Source of the DNA: a virus
Reading direction: 5' to 3' (one strand)
IMG/VR virus record: IMGVR_UViG_3300001979_000007
Location: 1-21,093 of that record
Length of the DNA: 21,093 nt
Part shown: piece after piece, positions 3,421 through 19,938 of the stretch
Layout of the letters: each line of letters opens with the position of its first letter
Numbering within the stretch: position 1 is the stretch's first letter
The notes under the pieces: generated by a model
What the model saw: only the letters and a program-made list of their open reading frames with translations
Database searches by the model: none
Told to the model about the DNA's origin: nothing
Made by a program: the position numbers and the translations under genes

Positions 3421-4284
3421 TCAGATTTGCTGATACACCCCATTGGCCTGATCGATCAGAACGAGTGTAAGCGGCGTATAAGCCCCCAGCGCATAGGGCG
3501 TATTCACCCCGGCATAGTTGATCTGGCCGCCTGTAGGTGGATAGATATTCAGTCCAGTGCCCGTGCCGTTGAAGATCGTGAACACCGTGCCGAGCGTCAT
3601 ACCAGCGGGCAGGATGATGCCGGTATTCGAGGCATCCGCACTGCCGATATGGAAAACGGATTTGGTGATCGCGCTGGCGGTTCCTTGCGTTGTGCCGGTC
3701 GCGCTCTGGAATGCCACCGTGGGCAAGCGCACATAGCTTGCGTCAATGGGTCTATTCGAGAGATCGTTATAGCTGCCGCTGGTCGCTACCGTACCAAGGC
3801 CGGTAATCGTGCTGGCCGCCTGTGTCCCCGTATGGGTGGATCGGTCTCTTAAATCAGCATTCGTTGCGTTTGCTGTCGCGCCTGTCGCAATGCCATTCAG
3901 CTTCGTTTTGTCCGAAGCGGACATAAGGCCGTCAACCGATATGGTAGCCGCCGTTGGCTGGCCGGTCAGGTCGTCATAATCCCCGGTGGTCGCAACATCG
4001 GACAAGCCGGTGATCGTGCTGGCGTTCTGTGTTCCGGTATGCGTGGATCGGTCACGAAGCGCCGCGTTACTCGCATTTGCGGTAGCGCCAGCCTCAATGG
4101 CATCTAGCTTGGATTTGTCGGAGGCAGATAGGAAGCCCGCAACAGTGGTGGTCGCATTGCTAATCAAGGCCAGCACTTGGGCAACTGTCATCTTGTAATT
4201 GAAACCGGACTTTAAGATCGGGAACGTTTCTGTCCCGTCAACGCTTGGCGCGCTACTGAGTTCGGAAATCTTCTTTGTCGCCAT
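3421..4284 (-). CDS. Tail fibre protein with tandem repeats (287 aa)
   Basis: The N-terminus MATKKISELSSAP resembles the attachment end of many phage fibre proteins. Residues 52-110 and 121-179 are two copies of one repeat (SASDKxKLxxIxxGATANA, LRDRSTHTGTQ, STITGL) offset by 69 residues; the STHTGTQ/STITGL type is common in shaft regions of tail fibres. The last ~100 residues, glycine-, threonine- and tyrosine-rich and ending TLVLIDQANGVYQQI, look like a beta-rich tip. The ATG is preceded by AGGAG. It is the last late gene, following the 952-aa receptor-facing protein by 25 bases. Its likely role is host recognition at the distal tail. Confidence 0.85.
   Translation of the reverse strand: MATKKISELSSAPSVDGTETFPILKSGFNYKMTVAQVLALISNATTTVAGFLSASDKSKLDAIEAGATANASNAALRDRSTHTGTQNASTITGLSDVATTGDYDDLTGQPTAATISVDGLMSASDKTKLNGIATGATANATNADLRDRSTHTGTQAASTITGLGTVATSGSYNDLSNRPIDASYVRLPTVAFQSATGTTQGTASAITKSVFHIGSADASNTGIILPAGMTLGTVFTIFNGTGTGLNIYPPTGGQINYAGVNTPYALGAYTPLTLVLIDQANGVYQQI
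3748..4131 (-). repeat. Two tandem 69-residue fibre repeats
   Basis: The segments 4131-3955 and 3924-3748 encode homologous copies offset by 207 bases. Shared cores are SASDK, GATANA, DRSTHTGTQ, STITGL and Y(D/N)DL. Copy number in such shafts can change by recombination. Confidence 0.85.
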
Positions 4285-4309
4285 GGCGTCTCCTGTCTTT
4301 TGTTTTTAT

Positions 4310-7168
4310 TTAATCGAACACCAAGACGTCTCCTGCTTCTGTCGTGATCGTAATTTGACCTGCAAATTCCATCTCAATCGGCGGCATGACAACTGGTTTG
4401 TCGAAAGCGATAACCTCGCCGGTTTCGAGGGTGACAAAGGTATCCTCTTCAAATTCCATCTGCTCGGGTTCTGCGATGACAGATGATGGCGCTCGCAACT
4501 GCTGGTCTTCCATCAGGATTGACGAGGATAGCGCCCTGAGAATTTCGCCTACCCAGAACCCGTAGAACAGTCGTGTCGAGGGGCTAGGGGAAAAGCTACC
4601 CGACATATCCCCGCTCTTGCTGAAAAGGCCATAGAGGTAGCTGAGGCTCCTTTCGCGGGCCTCTGCAATGTCGGCTGTCGTATGACCCGCCTCAATCAGC
4701 GCCGATAGGGCGTTGATATGGAGCGCAGCGATATGCGGCTCGTCATATGTGCCAAGGGGTAGTGATGATCCATCCTGAGCGAATAGCGTGGGTGGCTGGT
4801 TCGCATTGTCGCGCAGGAACTCAACAAGGAACGACGCATAGTCGTCCACGACCTCATAGAGCGCGGTCGGGATCGCATTGCCGTCCCTGTACAGTTGCAG
4901 CAACAGACTGGCAGCGCCGTAGAACGAGCGCGCTTGGAAGCCGCCCCAATATGTGTTCGGGTCAGGGCCGGTTGCTGAGAAGCCTTCGGCTTGTCCATAT
5001 GCGACGTTATCCCATTTGGGCCAGATATAAACCTGCGAGAAGGGACCGCGAAGGCCACTTTTGGCCTCGTAATCGTCCTGGCTGTCCACATAGAATTCTA
5101 TGACCTGGCTAACATGATCCAGCTTGCCTAGCATCGCCCAAACAGAAGGATATTGGTAAGCGACGTAAGGCGTCCCGCGCCAGAATTTGGTGCCTTCCTT
5201 GCCGTTTTTGTCGGTCGTGAATGGTACGACGCCCGGGCTGTAACGGTAGCTGATCGGCAAGCTGTTCGAGACGTACATATCCCCGAACTTAGCGGTGATC
5301 GCGGCTCGGCTTTTCATTTTCAGCTTCACTTCCGTCAGCATCGCTTCGGGAAGATCAAAGTTCGTCGGCTCGTCGCCATAGCAATATACGTCGATAGAGG
5401 CCGGCCCGGTTTCAGGGACCGGCGCGAAGCTGAAGCTATTAAAGCTGTCCCCTGTGGGAAACGCGCTCGGTGGCGTCCCTGTGTTGTTCTGGTAGGGCCA
5501 TGGCGTGAGATCCCCGGCGCTGAGCGTATATTGGCTCCAGCTACCTGATCCTGCGGCTAATTCCTTGCCCCAAATCCATCCGTCGGCGTCCTGAATAGTG
5601 ATGGCGCAGCGACCGGATTTGAGGCGGTATGTAAGTGCGTCGAGGCCGATCGATCCCGATGTGACGGTCCAGAACCCTACGACGCAATATGCTTCCGGGG
5701 ATGGCAGGGAAATACCGGCGAAGCCGACGAGGCGATCATTGAAATAGCCTATCTGTTTCGTCGCCACCGCGCCCGAATTGGGCATGATCTCGGCCTGATC
5801 GGCGGTTAGATAGCTGGTGCCATCGCTTTTCTTCTTGCTACGAAACGTCTTCAACTTGAAGGCGCGGAGTGGCACTGAACTCAGGCTATCGTCGGCAAGC
5901 AGCACTTGGCTAAACGTTTGCGGCTCTGCTCCCAGTTCGGGGCTGACAGTGATGGTCAGATCGCAGAATGTGTTGGGGCTGTTAAGCAGCATTTCGCAGT
6001 TAAGAATGGTTTCCGGGGTGATGCGGTTGATTACGCCTGTTTGCGCGACTTCCAGTTCCGCAATGTCAGAACCAGTTTCCGCATATTTCGTAATAGAACT
6101 GTAGCCGCGATCAACTCCAACGAATGCGGTTCTAGTGGTGTTGCTGAGCGACCAATAGGAGATGCCATGCTTGAAGGCTTTGGAAGCGGTTAGATTCTTT
6201 TTGAAGTAGTAGGCATCTGGGTCCAGTCGCGTTGCGGAGTCGAGCGAGTAGGCAGCGGAGTTGAAGGCGCGCAGATAGTCGGTGTTGCCGGTGTTGTCGT
6301 ACATCACCTTGAATAATTCGATGTGCCAGAGTTCAACGTCCATTGCGCTCGCGCACTCGCCATACCCCAGCTTGCGCCACATAGGCCAAGCATCAAAGCC
6401 ATTGTTGCGCGCAATGACGGCACCTGTACGAGCCGCAGAGACGACTTTCAGCGGCCCGGTGAATGGCTCAACCAACTTGATCTTGCCTGCCGTTTCGCCT
6501 GCTTGGATACCGAGTTCAACACCGTTGGCATCCATCTTCATCAATCGGCTGTCGATGAAATAATCCACCGCATATTTGTCGCCGGTATCGGCCAGTACAT
6601 CGGCAAAGACGTTCTTCCAAAGCAGTTTTGCGGTAGCGACCGGGCCGTATGCAAAATAGACGCGAGCGGTTTGCTCGCCAAAGTTCGGGGAGCCATGCGG
6701 TATGAAGCCAATCCCATCATCAAAATCCACGACAAGATCGAACGAACCGGATTGCTGATAGTCCCGCGTCTCAACTGGACCCAAAACTTTGAACGGGTAT
6801 TTGCCATTGATGACCCAATGATGCCGCCATTCGCCCACGGAGATCGGCAGCGAATATGCCGGAAAGTAGTTTTCGAGATAGGCGTCCGTGAACTTGACGG
6901 CACGCTCTCTGAACATGGGGATGCCGGTCGCTTCATAGGCGCGGATATAACCCAGCGCGAGAAGCACTTGGCTTTCGCTGGTAGCCGCATTTGACGGCAG
7001 ATAGCTACCGCGACCGCTTTCATAATGCAGCGAATTGTTGACCACCCCGGCATTGTTGACGAGGTAATTGGCGTCCTCGCCTACGGCAGCATCGCCGGTA
7101 TATCGCTCCACGAAATTGTGGAGGCTGATAATCATGCTTACGATGTCGTTGGAAAACGCGCCGGTCAT
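4310..7168 (-). CDS. Large tail protein, candidate receptor-binding depolymerase (952 aa)
   Basis: The ATG at 7168 is chosen because it overlaps the upstream stop (ATGA); a longer frame begins at 7204. The N-terminal third (LLALGYIRAYEATG, FTDAYLENYFPAY, ELFKVMYDNTGNTDYLRAFNSAAYSL) and the C-terminal part (SLLLQLYRDG, LSALIEAGHTTADIAEARERSLSYL) show repeated helical hairpins like those of alpha/alpha-barrel glycosidases or lyases. The middle is beta-rich, with GSWSQYTLSAGDLTP typical of sugar-binding sandwich domains. I cannot name catalytic residues. The last ~50 residues hold two copies of MEF...T.E.G.V..FD. Position between fibre genes supports a tail spike or fibre; enzyme activity is inferred. 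Confidence 0.7.
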   Translation of the reverse strand: MTGAFSNDIVSMIISLHNFVERYTGDAAVGEDANYLVNNAGVVNNSLHYESGRGSYLPSNAATSESQVLLALGYIRAYEATGIPMFRERAVKFTDAYLENYFPAYSLPISVGEWRHHWVINGKYPFKVLGPVETRDYQQSGSFDLVVDFDDGIGFIPHGSPNFGEQTARVYFAYGPVATAKLLWKNVFADVLADTGDKYAVDYFIDSRLMKMDANGVELGIQAGETAGKIKLVEPFTGPLKVVSAARTGAVIARNNGFDAWPMWRKLGYGECASAMDVELWHIELFKVMYDNTGNTDYLRAFNSAAYSLDSATRLDPDAYYFKKNLTASKAFKHGISYWSLSNTTRTAFVGVDRGYSSITKYAETGSDIAELEVAQTGVINRITPETILNCEMLLNSPNTFCDLTITVSPELGAEPQTFSQVLLADDSLSSVPLRAFKLKTFRSKKKSDGTSYLTADQAEIMPNSGAVATKQIGYFNDRLVGFAGISLPSPEAYCVVGFWTVTSGSIGLDALTYRLKSGRCAITIQDADGWIWGKELAAGSGSWSQYTLSAGDLTPWPYQNNTGTPPSAFPTGDSFNSFSFAPVPETGPASIDVYCYGDEPTNFDLPEAMLTEVKLKMKSRAAITAKFGDMYVSNSLPISYRYSPGVVPFTTDKNGKEGTKFWRGTPYVAYQYPSVWAMLGKLDHVSQVIEFYVDSQDDYEAKSGLRGPFSQVYIWPKWDNVAYGQAEGFSATGPDPNTYWGGFQARSFYGAASLLLQLYRDGNAIPTALYEVVDDYASFLVEFLRDNANQPPTLFAQDGSSLPLGTYDEPHIAALHINALSALIEAGHTTADIAEARERSLSYLYGLFSKSGDMSGSFSPSPSTRLFYGFWVGEILRALSSSILMEDQQLRAPSSVIAEPEQMEFEEDTFVTLETGEVIAFDKPVVMPPIEMEFAGQITITTEAGDVLVFD

Positions 7169-9782: not shown

Positions 9783-11423
9783 TCAATAGATCGTCATGGA
9801 GAAGAGCGTTCGCGCATTGGCCGTCACGGAACTCTCAGCAGCGAATATAACATCGACGGTGTAGGTGCCCGCTGGCAGAGCAAGGGAACCGCTCAACGGC
9901 ACGGCGTCATCGGTCTTCATACCGCCCGCAGGGAAGACGACCTGTCCATTGATCCGCAAGCGAAGGTTCCAAGTCTTGTCGCCGTCTGGAAAGCCCTGAG
10001 CGACACTGGCTTGGGCAAAGATCGTTCCCGCGCTTGCCAACGTGATCGACTGCGAGAGGATTGTGTGCCAATCGCTCGTTCCGGTCCCGCTGACCGGCGA
10101 TGTTGCCGAGTTGGTGGTCGGATTTGCGACAGTGCCGCTTGTGCCGACCTTGATGGTATCGACTTCGACGTTTGTCATACGGATCACGCCATCGCTATAG
10201 ATAAATGGCTGAATTGGCGTTCCATCGTTGGGATCGATCAATCTCAATACGTCAGCGACAATCGCAAACTCACCGACTGTCCCGTCATTCGTGTTTACCG
10301 TTCCGGTAATGTGACCATCGACATTGATTTGAAGAACGGACTTTGCCGTTACGCCGTCCGTGCCAATTAAAACTTCACTCAAGTTGATGATCGAGGCTTC
10401 ATGGTCGCTTGTTGCGGCGCTGATTTCGTCTAGCGTTGATGCTAGGGTTTTGCCCGGTTGGCTTTGAACCGTTGCTGCATCCAGAATGAAGGCCGTTCCA
10501 TCAGAGCTTTTAGCGCCAATGAGATCGAGCGTCGTGTTGATAGCCGCGATGTCCGTTTCCCGCTGGGTTCGTTCATTCAGAACAAACGTGCCTACCGGCT
10601 GTCCTTCAACAAAGGTTCGGGCGTCATAGACTGTTTCCATGTTATCGACGCGAAAAGTCTGCTCAAGCATGGAGTCGGCATTAAACTCCAAGTCGGCAAG
10701 TACCTCGCTGACAGGGCGCGCGCCAACAAATGTTCCCTCTGGTGCGCCAACAGTGGCATTGTCTTCCGGCTTCGTTCCGTTGGGATCGGTTACGCTATCC
10801 CATGCGATGCGCGAACGCTGGAGCATCTGATAGAGCGTAACCCTATCGGTGCTGAACTCGCTGCCATTGGGAACTACGGCCTCCACCACAAGTGCAGAGA
10901 CGCCGTTTGATCTGCAAAGGTCGTCAAAGAGAGGGGCGTCGATAGCGATGCTGTTCGCGTTTGCTGAACTGCTGATCTTCCCGGCTGTAAGCAGAGCAGA
11001 AGCGGTTCCCTCGGCGACAACCGTGTTATCAACCCTCTTCAAACGCCATTGAGTAGCGGAAGTGAGGTTATACTTGGTCAGCGTTAGAGTAGTGGTCTGC
11101 GCTAATGGCTCATTGTTAGCGTCATAGGCATAGAAGAAGTGGCTAGTCGCTAGTTCAACATACTTGCTCGTCCCGTCAGTCTCGCGGGCTTTTGCGATGG
11201 TGAAGGTCTTGTAGATGTCATAGCCATTATAGTAGGCGCGAAACGTCGCATTGGCATTGTCATCTTCAACAGCCGTAACCCCGTAGGCGCCGGTCGCGCT
11301 ATTAATGGTGACAGTGCAGCCTTCTTGAAATGCTACCTCATAGATTGCGCCATTGCCGGTCGTCACATCAACCGCATTGTCGTAGATTTTGAACTGTCCG
11401 CTAAACGTGTCAAGGGAGGTCAT
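9783..11423 (-). CDS. Tail fibre protein, gpJ C-terminal (DUF1983-like) region (546 aa)
   Basis: The ATG at 11423 (MTSLDTFSGQ) has AGGTGA 4 bases upstream; an in-frame TTG at 11450 lacks a ribosome site. The N-terminal half is beta-rich and repetitive. The region SVLQINVDGHITGTV ... GEFAIVADVLRLIDPNDG ... DGVIRMTNVEVDTIKVG matches the DUF1983 segment of lambda gpJ, the central straight fibre. The C-terminal ~110 residues (SGTGTSDWHTILSQSITLASAGTI...) resemble a beta-sandwich tip. In lambda these parts are fused to the tail-tip hub; here they are a separate gene 30 bases after the J-like hub gene. It probably trimerises below the tip and takes part in host contact. Confidence 0.8.
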   Translation of the reverse strand: MTSLDTFSGQFKIYDNAVDVTTGNGAIYEVAFQEGCTVTINSATGAYGVTAVEDDNANATFRAYYNGYDIYKTFTIAKARETDGTSKYVELATSHFFYAYDANNEPLAQTTTLTLTKYNLTSATQWRLKRVDNTVVAEGTASALLTAGKISSSANANSIAIDAPLFDDLCRSNGVSALVVEAVVPNGSEFSTDRVTLYQMLQRSRIAWDSVTDPNGTKPEDNATVGAPEGTFVGARPVSEVLADLEFNADSMLEQTFRVDNMETVYDARTFVEGQPVGTFVLNERTQRETDIAAINTTLDLIGAKSSDGTAFILDAATVQSQPGKTLASTLDEISAATSDHEASIINLSEVLIGTDGVTAKSVLQINVDGHITGTVNTNDGTVGEFAIVADVLRLIDPNDGTPIQPFIYSDGVIRMTNVEVDTIKVGTSGTVANPTTNSATSPVSGTGTSDWHTILSQSITLASAGTIFAQASVAQGFPDGDKTWNLRLRINGQVVFPAGGMKTDDAVPLSGSLALPAGTYTVDVIFAAESSVTANARTLFSMTIY

Positions 11424-11433
11424 GCTGTCACCT

Positions 11434-11454
11434 AATATTGGAACTCCCAATATT
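11434..11454 (-). promoter_or_regulatory. TAAATA-hairpin element before the J-fibre gene
   Basis: On the minus strand, AATATTGG-GAGTT-CCAATATT forms an 8-bp hairpin with a 5-nt loop. The TAA stop of the upstream gene is part of the ATAAATA motif at its 5' edge. The ribosome site AGGTGA abuts the 3' arm. The layout matches the elements at 13520 and 18671. Confidence 0.5.
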
Positions 11455-13517
11455 TATGTGATGTTGCCGGTTGCGTCGGATGGGAAGGAGACGTTCTCAT
11501 TGGTTAAGTAGCCGACAACGCTTGAAGCGTAACTGTCCCTGAGGCTTTCAACTTGCGTCTCTGTCCAGCTACCCCACATGCCGCTGAACATGAGGAAGCG
11601 CGCTCTAATGATGTGGTTCACGCCGCCAGCGATTGCAGAGAACGAGAACATCTCCGCTTCATGACTGAACCTGTCAGTTGCAGTTTGCCAAGTGTCGCCA
11701 TTCTGTTCACGGAACTCAATCTGGATAGCTTGAACACCTGCGTCGGGGGCAATCCAGCTAACATCAATCTGGCCGACTTGTGCGCCGTTGCTGTTAGTGA
11801 TGGTTCGCGTTGAAGCTACCAACCCTTCAACGCCAATGCTTTCATACGGATCATAAGCCGGAACTTTGACGTAAGGGGGAAGCTCTTTCGTCTCGTCGTC
11901 GTCCCATGCGTAGATTTGTGCAGCTTCCTCTTGGAGCGTCATGTTGAACGCGAGGTCCACAGTCTCGCTTTGGCTGATGACGCGGAACAGCTTGCCATTC
12001 GTAACCCAGCCTAATTCAGGGACGACCATGCGGACAAGCGAGCCGACCTGTACTGCGAATGCTTTGGGACCGAAGATACCACTGAATGTGCCGGTATATT
12101 TGTTCCTTACTAGATTCTGCTTAGCAATGCGCTGCGCTTGCTCAAATCGGGTGATGGCCGCAAAATCGAGGACAACTGGACGCGGTATGTTGTCGTCCAG
12201 CGGCGCAATCTCGATCTGTCCCCAATCGTTCAACTGGTACAGGTTCTCAGGATCAGGGAAGCGTCCGCGAGCGATGTTGTAGCTATCTTTCAGGGATAGA
12301 TTGTCGGGGGTGTGCGAGTATTGCCCGATCAGATCGTCCGGCGTGAACGTGATCGACGGGCCGTCTAGGTCATCATAGCCGCCGATAAGCTGATACATGC
12401 CAGCGGTATCGACCAGCTTAGCTGTACCCATGGCCGCAGCGATGATGTTGATGTTGGTTTCGTGGGTATCGGCTGTCGAGAGCAGCACATCGCAGAAATA
12501 GCGATTGGTCGTCGTACCATCATTCGTGATGACGGGTTCCTCGCACATATTGGCGTAGGTCATGAAATTGCCGAGGTCGATGCGATCCACAGGAACGCCC
12601 ATGCCCCAAGCAAGGCGACCATTGATCCGCCAGCCAATCAGGTAAGTGAGCAGGGCAAGGGCCGGATTGCGGCCAATATCCTCAGAGCCGCTGATAAAGG
12701 ACCATGTGTCCTGATTGTCGGGACGATGGGAGCCGACGCCGCCGACTGTGCTATCGAGGCGAGGGTCGTAAACCGGGCAACCGTCAACGATTGTAGTGAT
12801 GCGGGTTGGCAGACCATCAGGGTAATTGTCCGTGCTGAGACGGAAGATCATTTTCAGATAGGCGCAGCCGGTAAACGTTGCGGTGTTCTTCCAATAATCG
12901 CCGCTGCCGAACTTTTCAGCGTTTTCGGTATCACCTTCTGCAACTGCACCGATTACAAGGCCGCTCTTGTCATCATATTTGCCGGTGGTGCTGCCATTGA
13001 GGTAGGAAAGCTCGTCCTCTAGATAGACCTTCGAGATTTTGTGAACGCGATGGCTTGCGAGAGCGATGACCCTGTGAAGATAATCGCCCTTCTTCAACAC
13101 AGTCACTTTGGGCACTTGTCCCCAAAAGCCGCTCTTCGGATTGCTGGCAATTAGTTCCGACAGATAGTCCCAACTGTCGCGCTTCACTTTCTCATGGAAA
13201 CGTTCGTCCGTGCCTGCTGCTGTCCGTCCGAAGACGATCTTGCGAGGTGCAGTAGGGTCTGTTGTTATGTTGAAGCTGAGGCCAGAGCCGAATGACTTGG
13301 GCTTACCCATAATCAGTCTGGACGCCAGCGACATACCCAGACCAACAATCAACCCTGCCGCTACTTTAGCTGCTACCGCAGTGAAGCTAGTTCCTGCTGC
13401 TGCCAGCGCGCCAGTTCCGCCAAACGCGCTGAACAGTGCTGGTGCTAGATAACTGAAAGCAACCATAGCAACTACGGCAAGCGCAATAACTGCTACGAAC
13501 TTAATGATTTTGCCCAT
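11454..13517 (-). CDS. Tail tip protein, gpI/gpJ-like host-specificity hub (687 aa)
   Basis: The N-terminus has two hydrophobic Ala/Gly-rich segments (about 5-32 and 44-68), as in the lambda gpI family and in J proteins with a fused gpI-like part. The centre (PRKIVFGRTAAGT, VIALASHRVHKISKVYLED, WRINGRLAWGMGVP, FCDVLLSTADTHETNINIIAAAMGTAKLVDTAG shown here only in part) matches the tail-hub region of J-type proteins. A fibronectin type III-like domain covers about 562-660 (IDVSWIAPDAGVQAIQIEFR). It follows the NlpC/P60-like gene, as gpJ follows gpK/gpI. It forms the cell-proximal tail tip. The ATG is preceded by a hairpin that contains its ribosome site AGGG. Confidence 0.85.
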   Translation of the reverse strand: MGKIIKFVAVIALAVVAMVAFSYLAPALFSAFGGTGALAAAGTSFTAVAAKVAAGLIVGLGMSLASRLIMGKPKSFGSGLSFNITTDPTAPRKIVFGRTAAGTDERFHEKVKRDSWDYLSELIASNPKSGFWGQVPKVTVLKKGDYLHRVIALASHRVHKISKVYLEDELSYLNGSTTGKYDDKSGLVIGAVAEGDTENAEKFGSGDYWKNTATFTGCAYLKMIFRLSTDNYPDGLPTRITTIVDGCPVYDPRLDSTVGGVGSHRPDNQDTWSFISGSEDIGRNPALALLTYLIGWRINGRLAWGMGVPVDRIDLGNFMTYANMCEEPVITNDGTTTNRYFCDVLLSTADTHETNINIIAAAMGTAKLVDTAGMYQLIGGYDDLDGPSITFTPDDLIGQYSHTPDNLSLKDSYNIARGRFPDPENLYQLNDWGQIEIAPLDDNIPRPVVLDFAAITRFEQAQRIAKQNLVRNKYTGTFSGIFGPKAFAVQVGSLVRMVVPELGWVTNGKLFRVISQSETVDLAFNMTLQEEAAQIYAWDDDETKELPPYVKVPAYDPYESIGVEGLVASTRTITNSNGAQVGQIDVSWIAPDAGVQAIQIEFREQNGDTWQTATDRFSHEAEMFSFSAIAGGVNHIIRARFLMFSGMWGSWTETQVESLRDSYASSVVGYLTNENVSFPSDATGNIT

Positions 13518-13519
13518 TG

Positions 13520-13546
13520 AAATACCCTACTTGTTGTAAGGTATTT
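13520..13546 (-). promoter_or_regulatory. TAAATA-hairpin hiding the ribosome site of the J-like gene
   Basis: On the minus strand, AAATACC-T-TAC-AACAA-GTA-G-GGTATTT pairs with one mismatch around a 5-nt loop. The ribosome site AGGG lies in the 3' arm, 7 bases before the ATG at 13517, so the folded RNA would block initiation. TAAATA overlaps the 5' arm. Confidence 0.55.
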
Positions 13547-13564
13547 ACCGCTTGGGCTTCCTAG

Positions 13565-13996
13565 TTAGCCGATGCGCCAACAAGCATCGCAGTCCACAGA
13601 CGGCCAAGGAACTAGGCCATTGTCATCTAGGAAGTAGCTAAACTTTCCAACGCAGACGCCGAGATAAAATCGTCCATTGTCTTGTCGGCCTACAATGTCA
13701 CCGCGCCTTGCTTGAGAAGCATGTACGCTCTCGCCTAAACGCTGGTTAGCGCAGTCATAGAACGACCTGTAGCCGTTCTGGATCAGCCATTTTCCTGCTT
13801 CTTTCCAGCTCGTATATTTGCCTGCAAAATCCTCGGTAATGTCCACGCCCGTCTGAGCCTTGATCGCTCCACAAATGAACGTGGCGCAGTCATGGGTGTC
13901 AGGCTTGGTCGCGCCCCAATCGAAGCGATATTCGCTCACGCGGTCGAGATAGGTCGAAAGCGCGTCAGGCCAGTATTTCGTGCGCTGGAACATCAT
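13565..13996 (-). CDS. NlpC/P60-like tail protein, DUF6950 family (143 aa)
   Basis: The layout RTKYWPDALSTYLDR ... RFDWGATKPDTHDCATFICGAIKAQTG ... RRGDIV ... FYLGVCVGKFSYFLDDNGL ... DACWRIG matches DUF6950, a set of phage proteins related to NlpC/P60 cysteine peptidases. C37 in HDCATF is the likely nucleophile. In tailed phages this slot (lambda gpK) holds a peptidoglycan-cleaving or tail-assembly peptidase. I do not see an obvious catalytic His, so activity is uncertain. The ATG overlaps the upstream stop (ATGA) with GGGAGAG in front, and the gene is followed by a 47-base gap with a hairpin, then the tail tip gene. Confidence 0.8.
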   Translation of the reverse strand: MMFQRTKYWPDALSTYLDRVSEYRFDWGATKPDTHDCATFICGAIKAQTGVDITEDFAGKYTSWKEAGKWLIQNGYRSFYDCANQRLGESVHASQARRGDIVGRQDNGRFYLGVCVGKFSYFLDDNGLVPWPSVDCDACWRIG

Positions 13997-14613
13997 TTCT
14001 CTCCCGTAGCAAGACGGCCAGGTACGCGGGGATCATTGGCGATGCTCACAGCATAGGCTTGGCTGGTATCGTCGGGATCGAATAGCGGCTGATCGAGATA
14101 GGTGCTGGCGGTCGCGTTCGTGATCGAGGCCGCGTGGCTTTCGATGGTCAGCGTGAAAAGGCGCTGCTGTCCGTCATAGGACAGGGATAGCTTATCCATA
14201 ATCCCGCTACGGATGCGCCTGAACGCCCATGTTGCGGGCGCAACAGCATTGGGTGGCGTAATCATGAGAGCGCGCCAGAGGATGGCTCTACGGCCCTTAT
14301 ACTCGCTGCTATCCAGTGATGCCGCTATGAGCGCGTCAGGGGCAGTTTGGGGCACGGCGATCGCCAACTCAAGCTGATCGGACCCCTGATACGAAAATGT
14401 ATTCTCGCCAATCTGGATCGGGACGCCCTCGGCAATCGGGTCGAACACATAATTATCGAGATAAATGTCGCCGCTACCCATGGGCTGGATCGTCGTCCAT
14501 CCTGTCCACAAGCGGGTTGGATCAGATTTAAAATCGAGATAGCCCATGATGGCAGTTCGGATGCCTTGCGCTTCTAAAGCGTCCAGCCATTCGCCTGTAA
14601 TTCCGTCGCGCAT
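13993..14613 (-). CDS. Distal tail protein, gpL-like position (206 aa)
   Basis: Near the N-terminus YLDFKSDPTRLWTGWTTI is the typical start of a phage minor-tail family; it is followed by beta-rich sequence with QLELAIAVPQTAPD and, later, RRIRSGIMDKLSLSYDGQQRLFTLTIES. These features resemble DUF2163-type distal tail proteins that sit before the NlpC/P60 peptidase, equivalent in position to lambda gpL. The stop overlaps the start of the DUF6950 gene, and the start is 9 bases after the preceding gene, so translation of the three genes is probably linked. The exact family is not certain. Confidence 0.7.
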   Translation of the reverse strand: MRDGITGEWLDALEAQGIRTAIMGYLDFKSDPTRLWTGWTTIQPMGSGDIYLDNYVFDPIAEGVPIQIGENTFSYQGSDQLELAIAVPQTAPDALIAASLDSSEYKGRRAILWRALMITPPNAVAPATWAFRRIRSGIMDKLSLSYDGQQRLFTLTIESHAASITNATASTYLDQPLFDPDDTSQAYAVSIANDPRVPGRLATGEK

Positions 14614-14622
14614 ATTGCCCCC

Positions 14623-15225
14623 TTATAGCTTCTGGACGCAGCTAAGGGATCGCAGGTACATAACCTCCGCGTCCTGACTGTAGCCGTTGAACTCGTCACC
14701 ACTTGCTAGGCGGAGTTCGGTCTTGGGATTGGCGAATTCGACAATGGCATCCGCTGCATAGTTCTTCCTGAGCGGAGGCTGGAACTCAATGTTTGCTCGA
14801 CCACTGCTTGCGTTTGTCGGAACCACTGTAATTTGATGCAAGGAGTTGTTGATGCTGAAATAGTCGCCAACTTCTAGCCCGGTTGCTTCGCTTCCAGTCC
14901 AGCCCTTTACAGCGATCACGTTGCTCTCAGCATATGCGCCGTTATAGATCGACTTGCCGATGATCGCTTTGCCACTGCCATGAGGCTGATAGAGAAAGCT
15001 GCCCATAGTGCCGTTTAAGGACATGACCCAAGCAACATGCTCTTTGGCAATGCTGCTGCCGCGCTTTTGGTTTGGGAATGATAGCTGAACTTGCCACTGT
15101 GAAAAGTTGTTCACGATAGAAGCGTGACCGGAAAAGGGTGACTGAGCGACACCCTGATTATTGACCAGCCTAATATCTTCGGTCGATGGAGTGATCGGGG
15201 GTCCGCTGATCGGATATGTTGTCAT
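14623..15225 (-). CDS. Minor tail protein, gpM-like position (200 aa)
   Basis: The sequence (DIRLVNNQGVAQSPFSGHASIV, WQVQLSFPN, WVMSLNGTMGSFLYQPHG, ending SLSCVQKL, given in pieces) is of a type common in phage tail modules between the tape measure and the NlpC/P60 gene. It is beta-rich throughout. In lambda this place is taken by gpM, which joins the tail tip to the tape measure. It starts a fresh transcription unit after the antisense DUF3800 gene: the ATG follows GAGAGG and an upstream CCAATAAATA motif. Its role is inferred from position. Confidence 0.7.
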   Translation of the reverse strand: MTTYPISGPPITPSTEDIRLVNNQGVAQSPFSGHASIVNNFSQWQVQLSFPNQKRGSSIAKEHVAWVMSLNGTMGSFLYQPHGSGKAIIGKSIYNGAYAESNVIAVKGWTGSEATGLEVGDYFSINNSLHQITVVPTNASSGRANIEFQPPLRKNYAADAIVEFANPKTELRLASGDEFNGYSQDAEVMYLRSLSCVQKL

Positions 15226-15251
15226 TATAGAAGCCTCTCGCCCATTTTAGA

Positions 15252-15284
15252 TATTTATTGGCCGAACATTGGCGGGTTTCGGCC
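15252..15284 (-). promoter_or_regulatory. CCAATAAATA motif with upstream stem-loop before the distal tail genes
   Basis: On the minus strand GGCCGAA/TTCGGCC (15284-15278 with 15266-15260) forms a 7-bp stem, directly followed by AATAAATA (15259-15252). The ten bases CCAATAAATA recur exactly in front of the tape measure gene. As the region lies between divergent genes, the distal tail genes need a promoter here unless read-through crosses the DUF3800 gene. Confidence 0.4.
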
Positions 15285-15351
15285 CGGTTCGTCCGTGCTA
15301 CGCAGCTTGACCTAGGCGGTTGGCTAAATGATTGATTTTTTGGCCAAGTGC

Positions 15352-15369
15352 TAGGAGCCTTGACTCCTA
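15352..15369 (+). promoter_or_regulatory. Inverted repeat upstream of the DUF3800 gene
   Basis: TAGGAG-CCTTGA-CTCCTA is a perfect 6-bp inverted repeat 59 bases before the ATG at 15429. It may be an operator or a leader hairpin. A possible -35 (TTGACC) lies at 15308-15313, but no convincing -10 follows. Confidence 0.3.
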
Positions 15370-15428
15370 CGGCCTTCAAAGGGACACAGGCTGGTCAACG
15401 GATTTCTAAGTTTCGCAGTCGGGGTGGC

Positions 15429-16277
15429 ATGCACTTTTTTTATTTGGATGAGACTGGTTGTACTGGCGCGGATTTGGCCAACCAACAGCAACCAATATTC
15501 GTAATAGGTGGGATCTCGGTCAAAGCTCAGGGATGGAGAGAGACTACCGATCAATGCCGAAAAATATTGGACGACTTTTTCGGCGGCGCTGTGCCAAACG
15601 GGTTCGAACTCCACGCCACTGACTTAGTCAATCACCAAGGCGCATTCGCTGGCTTTACGCAAGAACAATGCAACGCTCTCGCCCACAGCTTTCTTGACCT
15701 AATCGCCGAGCGTAAACATGCGATCCATTTCGTTGGGATCGACAAAGCGAAGCTGGCTGCGGCTTTGCCGGGAAGCGGTCATGAAGTTGTGAACTGTGCA
15801 GTTCCCTATCTATTAGGGTTCAATTATCTTGTAAGTTATATCGAGCGATATACAAAGGAGGTCCTCGGTAGAACGGTGAGAGGTATGATTATTCTTGATG
15901 AAAAGGATAACTACCATTCAGACATTGATGCGATAACGAACTACCGTCGTTACGAGATTGCAAAGGCCAGAAGATTAAAATGGCTTGTTGAATTTAGCTA
16001 CCCGATCGATTCTGTAAGACACCCGATGATCCAAGTTTCTGATCTCGTCATATTCCTTGTGAGGAAATTTCTGGAGATGGAGAATGGGTATCGTCCCAAT
16101 TGGCCTGATGCTGCTAAAAGTTTTTATGCCAGTTGCTACGCAAAGATCGACAAAAGGATCAAGTGGGGTAAATTAATTGACGTTCCAGGCAATGAAGAGA
16201 AGGGCGCGCACGCCTTGCTTAATGCCGCACGTTCAACCCATCGGCAACAATGGAAGAGGTACTACGACATCGCGTAA
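15429..16277 (+). CDS. DUF3800 domain protein, antisense moron (282 aa)
   Basis: The start MHFFYLDETGCTG is the usual opening of DUF3800 proteins; the ATG has GGGGTGG just upstream. A GTG at 15348 would add 27 residues with no family match. Conserved acids are visible: D7-E8 (YLDETG), the ELHATDL block with H62 and D65, D157-E158 (IILDEKDNYHSD) and D205 (QVSDLVIF). DUF3800 is predicted to have an RNase H-like fold, so a metal-dependent nuclease is plausible, not shown. The gene lies antisense between the tape measure and distal tail genes, 39 bases from the tape measure stop. Its position points to an inserted accessory gene, perhaps for defence against other phages. Confidence 0.8.
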   Translation: MHFFYLDETGCTGADLANQQQPIFVIGGISVKAQGWRETTDQCRKILDDFFGGAVPNGFELHATDLVNHQGAFAGFTQEQCNALAHSFLDLIAERKHAIHFVGIDKAKLAAALPGSGHEVVNCAVPYLLGFNYLVSYIERYTKEVLGRTVRGMIILDEKDNYHSDIDAITNYRRYEIAKARRLKWLVEFSYPIDSVRHPMIQVSDLVIFLVRKFLEMENGYRPNWPDAAKSFYASCYAKIDKRIKWGKLIDVPGNEEKGAHALLNAARSTHRQQWKRYYDIA

Positions 16278-16316
16278 ATTGCTTTTCCGTTCTTGTATCC
16301 GGTGTTAGTTGGCCGG

Positions 16317-18668
16317 TCAGAGCCTCGATCTGCCCAGCTGATCCATTGTGTAACTGTTGGCCTGCTTCTTAATCATCGGCATGGCCTGTAGGATGCCATT
16401 CATGACCAGTTCCTGCGTGCGGGCTTCGTTCTGGCTTTCGCGGGCATCAACATTGATCGTTAGGCCGCCGCGATCACCGGATATGCCGGAAAGGACGTTA
16501 TGCGAGAGGACGCTTGTGCCGCCTTTCAAATAGGCTAGTTCCGGCCCACACTCACCAACCAGCTTCCAACCGGAGGACGAGACGTGGCCGCCATTCGCAT
16601 GAGCGCCCACGAAATTGTTGTAAGCGCCACCCATCACTATATCGCTGCCGCTGGAACCGCCACCAATGCCGATGCCCGACAGAGCGCCGCTCAATAGCCC
16701 GCCAATGGGCTTGATAAACGCCTGCTGGATGATGATTTCCGCAATGGTGGCGAGGACCTTTTTCCCGACCTCTAGGAACACATCACCAAAATTCTTCGCG
16801 TTCACGATTGCGTCAGCCAAACCGCTGCTGATCGATTGAAGCCCCTCTGTGCCGATGCTTTCTAGGGCTTCCTGAACCTCGGCCGCGCTTCCGGGTAAGC
16901 TGTCGAGATAGCTTTCCAGCGGTCCCATCGTGTTCTTGATCGCATTGTCCGAGAGCGCGCCATATTTGGCGTCCAGACCGTCAAGCCTGCGCTGCGCTGT
17001 TGCGCGTTCTTCCGGCGAAGCGGTGCTGGTGGCTGACAGAACAGCTTCAAGTTCCAGCTTTTCGCGCTTCTTTTGCAGTTCGAGCGTGCGAAGTTCGACC
17101 TCGCGGCGCTGGCGGGCTGTCTTAGACATTTCGCCAACTATGCTCAGCATGTCGAGTTGATCGGATAGTTCAGCTTCCTTGCTTTTGAGCAGTTCAGCTT
17201 CGATGCGGACAGCTTCCTCGTTGTTAATCTGGCTCTTCTCCGCGAGAGCGATCTTCTCCTGAAGCTGAATGAGGCTGTTTGCCTCTTCCTCAGTGTATTT
17301 GCCGCTGGTGTTCTGCTGCGTCTTTACATCATTGAGGATTTCCTGCTTGCGCTGCGCCAGTTCCTTGTCGATGGCTTCGCGCTCTAAAGCATAGCCCTGC
17401 GCGTAGTCGCCACGATCAATGTAAGAAGCGCGGGCCAGGTCGGCATTGGCGCGGGCAAGATCAGCCTTATATGCGGCTAAGCGATCAACCTCCTTCTGCG
17501 CTAGTTCTGCTGCCGTTGGACCGGACTTAGCGGGTGTAGGCTTTGGCGTTGGCGTAGGAAGCGCAGTGCCATGACCAGCATTACCTGTCTTTGCCGCAGC
17601 GACCGCTTTGTTGAGCAGCCCGACTTGTCGCTGCCATTCTTTCAACAAGCCCTGAGTGTCATGCCTGACTGTGCCGATGCCAATATCAGTGCTGCCCGCT
17701 GCCTTGGCATCATAATATTTCCGCCTTGCTTCGTGCATCTTCTGCTGGCGAAAGCGCAGGTCCATGTTGCTGTCCTGCATGGCCTGATCCATCTTGCCAC
17801 CAAGATAGACGCCGCCAGCAGCACCAGCGGCGGCACCCCACGGACCGGAAGCCAGACCACCGGCAATCGCGCCCATGATGCCCATTGCTGTTCTGGGGTT
17901 CTGTGCCCAAAACTTCATGAGCGCCGATGTCACGCTCGAAATACCGCTGGCAAATCCCGCGATTGCGCCTGCATTGGCAGAGATATTTGCTGCCATTTGC
18001 GCGCTGAGGATCATCTTCATGGTATCAAGCTGATCGTTCGCCTGACCCGCATTGCGGATAATGCCATCCTCCAGCACGATGCCCAGATCGCGAGCAGCCC
18101 TTGCTTGGAGTTCCAGACCTTCCGAACCGCCTGCAAGGGTTTGTGTCAGGGTACCGGCCTTTTTGCCAAACAGGTCCATCGTGGCGGACATCTGTTTAGT
18201 CGGATTATCCATCTTCTTGATGCTGTCGGCGGCTTGCTTCACCGCCTTATCGACTTCAAGAGTGGTGACGCCGTATTCATTCAGCTTCTTGATCGCTGCT
18301 TCATTGCCATTCGCCGCGTCACCAACGGTCTTTGAGAACTTTTCCAAGCCAGCATCGGCTGTCTCGAAGTCCGATCCTGCCATCTGGGCAGCGTAACGGA
18401 ACTCTTGGATCATCTTTGTTGAGACACCGGTTCGATCCGACATGTCCGCGATGGCATCGCTGAAATCGAGCGCGTTCTGAGTAAGGCCAACAAGCATATC
18501 GACGCCGACGGCGGCAGCTAGACCTTTGACTGCGAAGCTGGCTTTGTCCATCGAGCCTTGAATGATGCGCGATGTCTTGGTGCTTTCATCAGCGGCCTTC
18601 TTCATGCCGCTCAAGAATGATGCGCTCTCAAGTGAAAGGCTGGCGTAGAGACTGCCGAACTGTGACAT
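16317..18668 (-). CDS. Tail tape measure protein (783 aa)
   Basis: It is the longest tail gene and directly follows the G/T chaperone. The N-terminus (FGSLYASLSLESASFLSGM) is followed by long helical regions. A Gly/Ala-rich hydrophobic segment covers about 262-290. The charged coil at about 400-560 (KEVDRLAAYKADLARAN, REVELRTLELQKKREKLELE) is followed by the typical tape-measure C-terminus: NAKNFGDVFLEVGKKVL, IIIQQAFIKPIGGLL, and later GGTSVLSHNVL. It sets tail length and probably passes into the host envelope at DNA entry. At about 0.15 nm per residue it predicts a tail near 115-120 nm. Its ribosome site GGAG sits in the 3' arm of a perfect hairpin. Confidence 0.92.
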   Translation of the reverse strand: MSQFGSLYASLSLESASFLSGMKKAADESTKTSRIIQGSMDKASFAVKGLAAAVGVDMLVGLTQNALDFSDAIADMSDRTGVSTKMIQEFRYAAQMAGSDFETADAGLEKFSKTVGDAANGNEAAIKKLNEYGVTTLEVDKAVKQAADSIKKMDNPTKQMSATMDLFGKKAGTLTQTLAGGSEGLELQARAARDLGIVLEDGIIRNAGQANDQLDTMKMILSAQMAANISANAGAIAGFASGISSVTSALMKFWAQNPRTAMGIMGAIAGGLASGPWGAAAGAAGGVYLGGKMDQAMQDSNMDLRFRQQKMHEARRKYYDAKAAGSTDIGIGTVRHDTQGLLKEWQRQVGLLNKAVAAAKTGNAGHGTALPTPTPKPTPAKSGPTAAELAQKEVDRLAAYKADLARANADLARASYIDRGDYAQGYALEREAIDKELAQRKQEILNDVKTQQNTSGKYTEEEANSLIQLQEKIALAEKSQINNEEAVRIEAELLKSKEAELSDQLDMLSIVGEMSKTARQRREVELRTLELQKKREKLELEAVLSATSTASPEERATAQRRLDGLDAKYGALSDNAIKNTMGPLESYLDSLPGSAAEVQEALESIGTEGLQSISSGLADAIVNAKNFGDVFLEVGKKVLATIAEIIIQQAFIKPIGGLLSGALSGIGIGGGSSGSDIVMGGAYNNFVGAHANGGHVSSSGWKLVGECGPELAYLKGGTSVLSHNVLSGISGDRGGLTINVDARESQNEARTQELVMNGILQAMPMIKKQANSYTMDQLGRSRL

Positions 18669-18670
18669 AA

Positions 18671-18699
18671 AAATACTCCGTAGGACTTACGGAGTATTT
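18671..18699 (-). promoter_or_regulatory. Perfect 12-bp hairpin hiding the tape measure ribosome site
   Basis: On the minus strand, AAATACTCCGTA pairs fully with TACGGAGTATTT around the loop AGTCC, and TTTTT-ATG-type sequence follows. GGAG in the 3' arm is 7 bases before the ATG at 18668. CCAATAAATA overlaps the 5' arm. The structure can act as a translational block and, with its U-run, as a weak terminator. Confidence 0.65.
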
Positions 18700-18704
18700 A
18701 TTGG

Positions 18705-19046
18705 CTATGTAGGGTCCTTCTTGTTCTGGCGTTCGGCGTATGCCTTGAAGTAGCCCTTGATCTTGTTATGCAGATGGCTTTCCGGTTCCGGTTCAGTCTT
18801 CTCTTCCAACTTCCATCTGTCGTAGAATGTGGGGATAGGAGTATCGGATGAAGCCCGGTAAGCGGAGTAGAACAGTGTAAGCTGGTTTCTGGAACGCTCG
18901 TCCTCGACTGGACAGCCCCATGGCTCAAGCTCATAATAGGCTGCCCATGTAGTGAACTCAGGCAACGGCATGGCTGCGACTTCGGAGAGGCTTTTGCCTA
19001 GGGCCAAAGCCAGTCGGCAGATAAACAGCCTCTCCGGGTTATCCAT
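18705..19046 (-). CDS. Tail assembly chaperone T domain, made by -1 frameshift
   Basis: The product (RLFICRLALALGKSLSEVAAM, PEFTTWAAYYELEPWG in pieces) matches the gpT-like half of tail assembly chaperones. Its ATG overlaps the G stop (TGATG), but the frame is also open backwards through the A-run at 19052-19059, which is the -1 frame relative to G. Most of it is therefore expected as a G-T fusion covering 18705-19444 (246 residues: 131 from G, then R-L, then these 113). The charged tail (RWKLEEKTEPEPESHLHNK, shown in part) is probably flexible. The fusion chaperone recruits tube subunits onto the tape measure. Free initiation at 19046 is possible but has no good ribosome site. Confidence 0.85.
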   Translation of the reverse strand: MDNPERLFICRLALALGKSLSEVAAMPLPEFTTWAAYYELEPWGCPVEDERSRNQLTLFYSAYRASSDTPIPTFYDRWKLEEKTEPEPESHLHNKIKGYFKAYAERQNKKDPT

Positions 19047-19444
19047 CAGTCTTTTTTTTCGGCCTCGACTTGCTCTGGCATGTTTCCGCCTGACAGCGAC
19101 ATGGACAGCATATGCAGATAAATGTTCTGGATTTGCTGATATGGCAGCTTCTTTAGTGCTGGAATATCGTCAAGGGAGAACATAAGGTTGCCTTTGCCAT
19201 CCACCACACTGAACACGATACCAACCATCGCTTCATCAAGAGGTTCAACATATGGGTTGGCTTTTGGATCATCGTTGTGAGCCTGAACCGCTTTGGCATT
19301 GTCTTGAAGGGTTGTCACGAAAGCCACGCGACGTTCGACATTGAACGCCTCCAAGCGAATTGTTGCATTCCACTCTGGGATGAACAGTTCGGTTGAACGT
19401 GGCTTTTGTGATAGCAAGAACGACTTTGTAGCCAGCTTTGCCAT
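19046..19444 (-). CDS. Tail assembly chaperone G (132 aa)
   Basis: It lies between the tail tube and tape measure genes, the fixed place for gpG-type chaperones. The protein opens MAKLATKSFLLSQKPRSTEL and has a helical core (PYQQIQNIYLHMLSMSL). It ends EAEKKD, encoded by GAA AAA AAA GAC TGA. The A-run lets a fraction of ribosomes slip into the T frame. In lambda, G and GT wrap the tape measure and bring in tube protein, then leave the finished tail; the same role is inferred here. Its ATG overlaps the tube gene stop (TAATG), so it is translated by coupling. Confidence 0.85.
   Translation of the reverse strand: MAKLATKSFLLSQKPRSTELFIPEWNATIRLEAFNVERRVAFVTTLQDNAKAVQAHNDDPKANPYVEPLDEAMVGIVFSVVDGKGNLMFSLDDIPALKKLPYQQIQNIYLHMLSMSLSGGNMPEQVEAEKKD
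19052..19058 (-). other. Programmed -1 ribosomal frameshift site (A AAA AAA)
   Basis: Codons GAA AAA AAA GAC TGA at the G end contain the heptamer A-AAA-AAA in the correct X-XXY-YYZ register, followed by G. A -1 slip gives GAA AAA AAA AGA CTG ATG, which stays open to 18705. The register, the A8 run and the gene position all agree with the G/GT scheme of lambda-like phages. Confidence 0.85.
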
Positions 19445-19854
19445 TAGCTCACCGTCACATCGCCGGAGATTTCGATAGTGGCCGAGCCGGTAACGGCTGC
19501 GTCAACACCGCCGTTCAGTGGCTTGCTGATAACGAAGCCGGAAAAGGCATAGGTTGTGTTGTCGGTATCATTCAACTGTAGCTTGAAATTCTTGAGGGAG
19601 CGCGAAGCCTTAGCTGCTTCAAGAGCGACCTGACCGGCATCATTTGGGATGACAAGGAAGTTGATGGATACCTGACCGAAATCCTGCAAGCCCATCAGCT
19701 TTTCTTTAGCGGTGCTGTCGAGGTTGGTTGTATCGATGACCGATGCCGAGCCGCTGAACGCGGAGAAGTCGGTGATCTTAGCAACAGGGGTGAAAACGCC
19801 GGTTGCGGTTTCAATGGATAGGACAGTGCCCTGAGTTTCTACGGCGGTTGTCAT
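19444..19854 (-). CDS. Major tail tube protein (136 aa)
   Basis: The sequence (FTPVAKITDFSAFSGSASVID, NLDSTAKEKLMGLQDFGQVS, LKNFKLQLNDTDNTTYAFSGFV in pieces) fits the lambda-type tail tube family: small, beta-rich, with the conserved T-N-L-D/S start and a G-x-V central strand. It forms the hexamer rings of the tail tube. A GGAGG ribosome site lies 11 bases before the ATG, as expected for a highly made protein. The next gene overlaps its stop (TAATG). A complex set of competing stems lies in the 84-base gap upstream. Confidence 0.85.
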   Translation of the reverse strand: MTTAVETQGTVLSIETATGVFTPVAKITDFSAFSGSASVIDTTNLDSTAKEKLMGLQDFGQVSINFLVIPNDAGQVALEAAKASRSLKNFKLQLNDTDNTTYAFSGFVISKPLNGGVDAAVTGSATIEISGDVTVS

Positions 19855-19872
19855 TATGTTTTAGCCTCCAAA

Positions 19873-19921
19873 AGTTGGTAGCTCGCCTCTCAGGGCTTGC
19901 TTCCAACTATTTATTTGTTGG
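19873..19921 (-). promoter_or_regulatory. Competing-stem leader before the tail tube gene
   Basis: On the minus strand CCAAC (19921-19917), GTTGG (19907-19903), CCAACT (19878-19873) and TTGG (19871-19868, beside the GGAGG) can pair in alternative ways. The stem 19908-19903/19878-19873 gives a long hairpin. ATAAATA (19914-19908) lies between the first two arms. The arrangement suits a conformational switch; this is inference. Confidence 0.4.
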
Positions 19922-19938
19922 AGACTGGGGCCGTTCTC

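Follow-up and report, generated by a model that had tools for sequence, protein, structure and literature searches.

TAAATA motifs ahead of late genes in temperate sphingomonad phages as probable -10-only promoters with a predicted built-in translation switch

The hexamer TAAATA recurs just ahead of late genes in the stretch of viral DNA analysed here, i.e., the 21,093-bp IMG/VR virus record IMGVR_UViG_3300001979_000007 (hereafter the window), where a minus-strand block encodes the tail tube, two chaperone-like genes, the tape measure, Dit, an NlpC/DUF6950 protein, the hub J and fibres. The recurrence is probably (at about 0.72 for the reading as a whole) the mark of a late promoter reduced to a -10 element and combined with a translation switch. 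TAAATA would be the -10-type core of a phage late promoter lacking a -35 element and standing ahead of each late transcription unit, with transcription starting about 5-8 nt downstream. At the genes for the tape measure protein (TMP), hub J, Dit, tail tube and, in part, portal, the sequence upstream of this start would fold back onto the Shine-Dalgarno (SD), with TAAATA often part of the arm; as such, read-through RNA from upstream genes would be poorly translated, while RNA started at TAAATA, devoid of the 5' arm, would be translated. At terS and several genes of distant relatives, the start codon would coincide with the presumed +1, yielding a leaderless message, to the same effect. The reader would be the host RNA polymerase, aided by a phage factor without recognisable resemblance to gp55 or sigma-70. 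Within this reading, the promoter role is held with most confidence, the switch with less and the role of the candidate factors considered below with least.

All TAAATA copies in the window, seven in number, are found on the minus strand, with zero on the plus strand. Six of them precede gene starts, exactly the ones listed in a preliminary description of this DNA, namely those at 4284, 11423, 13517, 15225, 18668 and 19854, while the single extra copy it had placed near 1003 in a 281-amino acid (aa) open reading frame (ORF) is located at 1002-1007. Taken alone, a whole-window count of seven is unremarkable (shuffle mean of 4.9). All six late-region copies lie at most 70 nt upstream of an ORF, for an expectation of 0.30 in dinucleotide-shuffled leaders, and none of the 300 shuffles reaches six. 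This comparison had been proposed in the preliminary description itself. The regularity is real and stronger than originally stated.

Considering the orthologous leaders available in up to 15 records, TAAATA is kept at the starts of terS, portal, capsid protein (MCP), gp6, tail tube, tape measure, Dit, J and fibre genes while the surrounding sequence changes, and this conservation covers about ten relatives and extends to those at about 50-60% protein identity; the loss of motif and hairpins in close relatives, which had been named as counter-evidence, did not occur. No TAAATA is present at the terL, chaperone and NlpC genes, the starts of which overlap or abut the previous stop. In seven relatives, 7-10 copies are found per leader set vs about 0.5-0.7 expected, and among all hexamers of 67 leaders drawn from three clades TAAATA ranks first (29), exceeding dinucleotide shuffles of these leaders by a factor of 10 to 20. 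A chance or AT-rich intergenic origin was rejected on the basis of these shuffles and of the hexamer ranking. The more complete relatives carry 9-14 copies on the late strand vs 0-2 on the other (14:0 in G007); among the phages with this late-strand bias, Poisson P is as low as 1e-10, in G411. In the clade of the window the motif mostly reads AATAAATA, where AA mostly precedes the core and is replaced by mixed bases in distant phages. Use of the motif by the host was likewise rejected, AATAAATA being rare in host genomes outside prophage. In sphingomonads, distant J relatives (about 40% identity) have no TAAATA near J and the system is therefore not general to this tail type.

The promoter reading draws on the spacing between motif and start codon. 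Over 101 distinct sites, an ATG opening an ORF of at least 40 aa is found eight times at 4 nt and eight times at 5 nt past TAAATA, vs about 1.1 times at each other offset and never at 0-3 or 6 nt (Poisson 3e-9, or 1e-4 without the terS of the clade). About 10 of these 16 ATGs lie outside the clade terS, including those of a terminase large subunit and of unrelated genes. While the overall TAAATA-to-start distance ranges from 4 to about 100 nt, the genes starting 4-5 nt past the motif, i.e., the terS of most clade members plus non-homologous genes of other phages, have no usable SD. The TATA box of T4 has its first base at -13, one helical turn ahead of the start site (PMC2988020), which would place +1 at the sixth base past TAAATA; since a leaderless mRNA must have its start codon on +1 or directly beside it, the 4-5 nt peak counts in favour of a promoter. 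Over 53 and 36 sites, no conserved upstream signal suggestive of a -35 element was found, and G is preferred at the fourth base past TAAATA. At the left end of the late region (G003, G004, G005, G007 and similar places elsewhere), the motif also heads a short ORF-free stretch that leads to a terminator-like repeat.

Regarding this ORF-free stretch, TAAATA in G005 (L040:3545-3640), and at the same place in G003, G004, G002, G410 and G411, is followed by about 90 nt without ORF and then by the terminator-like repeat, which is shared with the end of ORF A (see below); many versions contain CTCCTT, resembling an anti-SD, and a late small RNA is possible. Some copies lie on the opposite strand, at late-oriented position 33736 of G003 (minus; L036 about 6117-6122), also in G002, G005 and G006, and at late-oriented position 28123 of G007 (plus strand), where they precede a conserved leader of ORF C (about 170 aa) that is structured and contains a terminator-like repeat (GTCCGCTGCG...CGCAGCGGAC TTTTT).

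As for the translation switch, read-through RNA was folded beginning 40 nt upstream of TAAATA and reaching 35 nt into the gene, and TAAATA-started RNA from the sixth base past TAAATA, with a shuffled 5' part as control. For 78 distinct leaders, the mean predicted cost of opening the SD is 7.8 kcal/mol for read-through RNA, falling to 3.0 when the RNA starts at TAAATA and to 4.9 when the 5' part is shuffled, vs 5.7, 4.6 and 5.2 kcal/mol, respectively, for leaders without TAAATA in the same genomes, a difference that persists when each gene contributes a single value (P=0.005). In the same order, the values are 13.8, 1.9 and 6.2 kcal/mol for TMP, the clearest case, 8.9, 2.5 and 4.2 for Dit, 9.3, 3.4 and 5.9 for J, and 8.2, 5.9 and 6.0 for the tail tube. 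The SD-pairing bases lie at or upstream of +7 past TAAATA in most TAAATA leaders. The motif itself is within the stem at TMP and J, in the loop at Dit, tail tube and portal, with the arm upstream of it at Dit and tail tube, and without hairpin at MCP and terS; what is constant across the hairpin leaders is that the arm would be missing from an RNA started at TAAATA. SD blocking relieved without the 5' arm is predicted at TMP, Dit, most J, tail tube and some portal leaders.

In the window, the hairpins previously described at 13520 and 18671 indeed begin in TAAATA, with a 5-nt loop and the SD (AGGG and GGAG, respectively) in the 3' arm 7 nt before the ATG. Opening the SD of the TMP leader is predicted to cost 10.9 kcal/mol in read-through RNA and 2.1 kcal/mol when started at TAAATA, and a T5 run follows this hairpin. 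The J stem displays compensatory changes in relatives (CCTTAC/GTAGGG, CCTCAC/GTGGGG and CCTCAA/TTGAGG), with 95.5% of cells paired and a covariation score reached by 1/500 shuffles, for only six related sequences. The predicted cost for the tail tube is 8.6 vs 6.5 kcal/mol without the 5' arm, and the upstream-arm pairing is present in relatives. The effect is weak at 11423 (5.1 vs 2.6 kcal/mol), where the SD, AGGTGA, is just 3' of the hairpin, and small yet above shuffles at 4284 (3.9 vs 1.8 kcal/mol). Dit leaders of relatives have a strong hairpin (CTCGCCC...GGGCGAG) with TAAATA in the loop, that of the window at 15225 being weak. No match to a known RNA family was found in Rfam. Separately, the core of the MCP leader, GTGAGCCGCTACAGGGGCGATCCTGTCAATAGGTCAC (L040:10694-10800 and relatives), is near-identical although the capsid proteins differ strongly, and resembles a structured 5' untranslated region.

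Several points weigh against the promoter-and-switch reading. The SD-opening energies are nearest-neighbour predictions, and the leader counts are not independent because the relatives share ancestry. The hairpin effect is absent in MCP and gp10 leaders, and none or reversed for J in G007 and G008 and for Dit in the window (15225); the switch is thus common and not universal. In terS leaders with a spacing of 4, the start codon lies one base before a T4-type +1. Regarding the candidate factors ORFs A and B, introduced below, their models match nothing significant and their link to TAAATA is therefore one of co-occurrence only, and one record (G379) has a B-like gene yet no TAAATA within 19 kb.

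Three other explanations were weighed. UAAAUA could act at the RNA level, as the site of a phage or host RNA-binding protein or as an A/U-rich ribosome stand-by or enhancer, tuning one long late transcript together with the hairpins and without any promoter. Strand specificity, location upstream of genes, association with hairpins and the overlap of two sites with stop codons, which fits an mRNA context, would all suit such an element, but its distance to the start is variable, a sharp 4-5 nt peak occurs in genes without SD and TAAATA is also found ahead of a non-coding stretch that closes with a terminator-like repeat; moreover, the varying place of TAAATA in the structure (stem, loop or no hairpin) argues against an RNA-binding site, and on balance this explanation is unlikely.

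Endonucleolytic processing is highly improbable. A/U-rich sites beside hairpins are typical cleavage contexts, and RNase E or a phage nuclease cutting UAAAUA, with hairpins protecting the new 5' ends or setting stoichiometry, would generate 5' ends near those predicted. Such a cut, though, would not free the SD at TMP and J because the 5' arm lies 3' of UAAAUA, the latter is partly base-paired at both genes, and the leaderless spacing peak is left unexplained. Hardly more probable is a view where the hairpins are transcription attenuators, or means of translational coupling opened by the terminating ribosome, and TAAATA merely AT-rich intergenic sequence. The T5 run after the TMP hairpin and the hairpins beginning 0-20 nt past the upstream stop at 11423, 13517 and 18668 speak for it, against which TAAATA is the top hexamer, far above dinucleotide shuffles, T-runs are absent at J, at Dit and at Dit's relatives, and the Dit gene of the window comes after an opposite-strand gene, so that its leader cannot be due to coupling with a late gene further upstream.

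Coming back to the -10-only promoter, the absence of a gp55-like sigma gene from the window, as noted in the preliminary description, holds more widely, since the gp55 profile phrog_234 matches T4, used as control, and nothing in the phage records, possibly incomplete, or in two host genomes; sigma-70 region 2 (PF04542) was not found in the phage records either. To the left of the late genes, the relatives that include this end encode two ORFs on the opposite strand, namely A (about 175 aa) and B (about 135 aa). They are paralogues (profile comparison, 98% probability, E 9e-15) with no convincing Pfam or PHROG match, and their folds and models gave no significant match, the weak hits to PURA being non-significant. 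A kinship of ORF B with gp55 was rejected, as profile comparison with T4 gp55 shows no similarity. Searching Sphingomonadaceae genomes with the A and B profiles revealed two more A+B pairs (G099 and G370), with TAAATA sites divergent from the pair and including TAAATA-N4/5-ATG. In viral contigs, the ORF B profile retrieved three phages with different head genes (G410, G411 and G412), where TAAATA is distributed 7:0, 16:2 and 6:0 between strands and the reversed pattern occurs 0-3 times; no relative of ORF B was found among INPHARED phages. The A/B neighbourhood also holds an integrase and a DUF2958 gene, which could equally well be passengers or actors. By association, A and B are the leading candidates for the reading factor. 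Going further, they may form a new late-transcription factor family without detectable gp55 or sigma-70 kinship that would direct the host RNA polymerase to the -10-only TAAATA promoter, as a module common to phages with unrelated structural genes and with two ways of silencing read-through, i.e., SD-blocking hairpins and leaderless starts, a tentative proposal with the odds somewhat against it. At the right end, ORF D (50 aa, MTQQELEDFLAKGGRITKV...; late-oriented G004 30137-30289 and G005 29051-29203, minus strand) weakly resembles the RNA-polymerase-binding domain of SutA (PF20661) in three phage records, with E between 5e-7 and 5e-5 and none reaching the curated cut-off; this match was not found in G007 and G008 and ORF D is a lead only.

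The features of the window are listed in Table 1. Its hub protein is 78-99% identical to those of IMG/VR records and of contigs of Sphingobium sp. TCM1 and S. bisphenolivorans YL23, and in TCM1 the tail block is downstream of a serine integrase; the window thus most likely belongs to a family of temperate sphingomonad phages. Between tape measure and Dit, a plus-strand DUF3800 gene (15348-16277) occupies a position with no gene in G005 and different genes in other relatives, i.e., a moron insertion site. In the integrase-terminase interval of G001 and G003-G005, no replication or repressor genes were recognised, and these elements may depend on the host or carry unrecognised early genes. The hub gene of G007 (late-oriented about 18344) and G008 (about 17373) apparently starts at ATC or further downstream, close relatives having ATG or GTG.

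Table 1. Late genes, TAAATA sites and predicted RNA structures in the window
Feature	Position	Strand	Remarks
Major tail (tube) protein	19444..19854	-	PF16460 E=4.5e-16; phrog_158 E=2.2e-26
Tail length tape measure protein (TMP)	16317..18668	-	phrog_9483 E=2.6e-28
Distal tail protein (Dit)	14623..15225	-	phrog_1302 E=8.1e-28
Tail hub/central fibre J-like protein	11454..13517	-	phrog_5616 E=5.9e-84; phrog_31 E=2.5e-30
Tail/fibre-region protein, ATG at 11423	9783..11423	-	phrog_31539 E=3.8e-134
287-aa tail-fibre/decoration-like protein	3421..4284	-	gene start at 4284
TAAATA before tail tube gene, proposed late-promoter -10 element	19908..19913	-	conserved throughout the close relatives, to as low as 62% protein identity
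Predicted start for tail tube RNA	about 19903-19900	-	5-8 nt downstream of TAAATA
TAAATA before tape measure gene	18695..18700	-	predicted start about 18690-18687; conserved
TAAATA before Dit-like gene	15252..15257	-	unit comes after plus-strand DUF3800 gene
TAAATA before tail hub/fibre J-like gene	13542..13547	-	predicted start about 13537-13534; conserved
TAAATA before fibre gene (start 11423)	11451..11456	-	TAA is the stop codon of the preceding gene
TAAATA before 287-aa protein gene (start 4284)	4307..4312	-	TAA is the stop codon of the preceding gene
TMP hairpin AAATACTCCGTA-AGTCC-TACGGAGTATTT	18673..18699	-	SD GGAG in 3' arm; kept in 11 distinct leaders
J hairpin AAATACCTTAC-AACAA-GTAGGGTATTT	13520..13546	-	SD AGGG in 3' arm
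Fibre-gene hairpin AATATTGG-GAGTT-CCAATATT	11434..11454	-	8 bp, 5-nt loop, overlaps TAAATA
Tail-tube SD-blocking structure	19863..19926	-	arm AGTCTCCAA (19926-19918) lies upstream of TAAATA and pairs with the SD-bearing TTGGAGGCT (19871-19863)

The T4 late promoter with hairpin-gated translation is usually regarded as peculiar to large T4-like phages that possess gp55 and a sliding clamp. T4-like logic in small temperate phages without detectable gp55 suggests either convergence or an unrecognised class of factor, for which A/B are a clear candidate. It also supplies many natural promoters, the starts of which are predicted with an uncertainty of a few nucleotides, and an annotation rule for late units in sphingomonad prophages. 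Like the late promoters of T4 (TATAAATA, gp55/gp33/gp45), TAAATA is a short AT-rich -10-only element, without -35, repeated before late units, and the start site would lie about one helical turn downstream (PMC2988020). Unlike them, the core is TAAATA, with the octamer TATAAATA, which spans -13 to -6 in T4, not required (0 copies in the window), G is preferred at the fourth base past the core, gp55 and sigma-70 region 2 were not detected and the genomes are of a small temperate siphophage type. On account of gp55 and the octamer, the system is filed as working like T4 late control and not as a member of it. The T4-late-like logic of the preliminary description thereby stands in part, backed by the conservation among diverged phages, by the leaderless spacing found at genes that are not homologous, by SD arms located ahead of the presumed start and by negative controls, and curtailed by the unused octamer, the undetected gp55 or sigma-70 region 2 and a switch at some leaders only. 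In the part of the sphingomonad phage literature covered, no description of a TAAATA motif was found. For the T4 genes e, soc, 49 and I-TevI, the SD is sequestered in the long read-through RNA and free in late-promoter RNA, the promoter overlapping the 5' arm (PMC3014915). The same logic of sequestration and release is predicted here, with the difference that it would concern structural genes (tape measure, hub, Dit, tail tube and portal) and coexist with leaderless late starts in the same genomes. Leaderless mRNAs are common in alphaproteobacteria, with 375 in Caulobacter crescentus and 171 in Sinorhizobium meliloti (PMC4117421); the start codon at +1 would be shared with them, but here it is tied to one phage promoter-like motif, and leaderless and SD-blocked messages would thus be linked to one and the same promoter.

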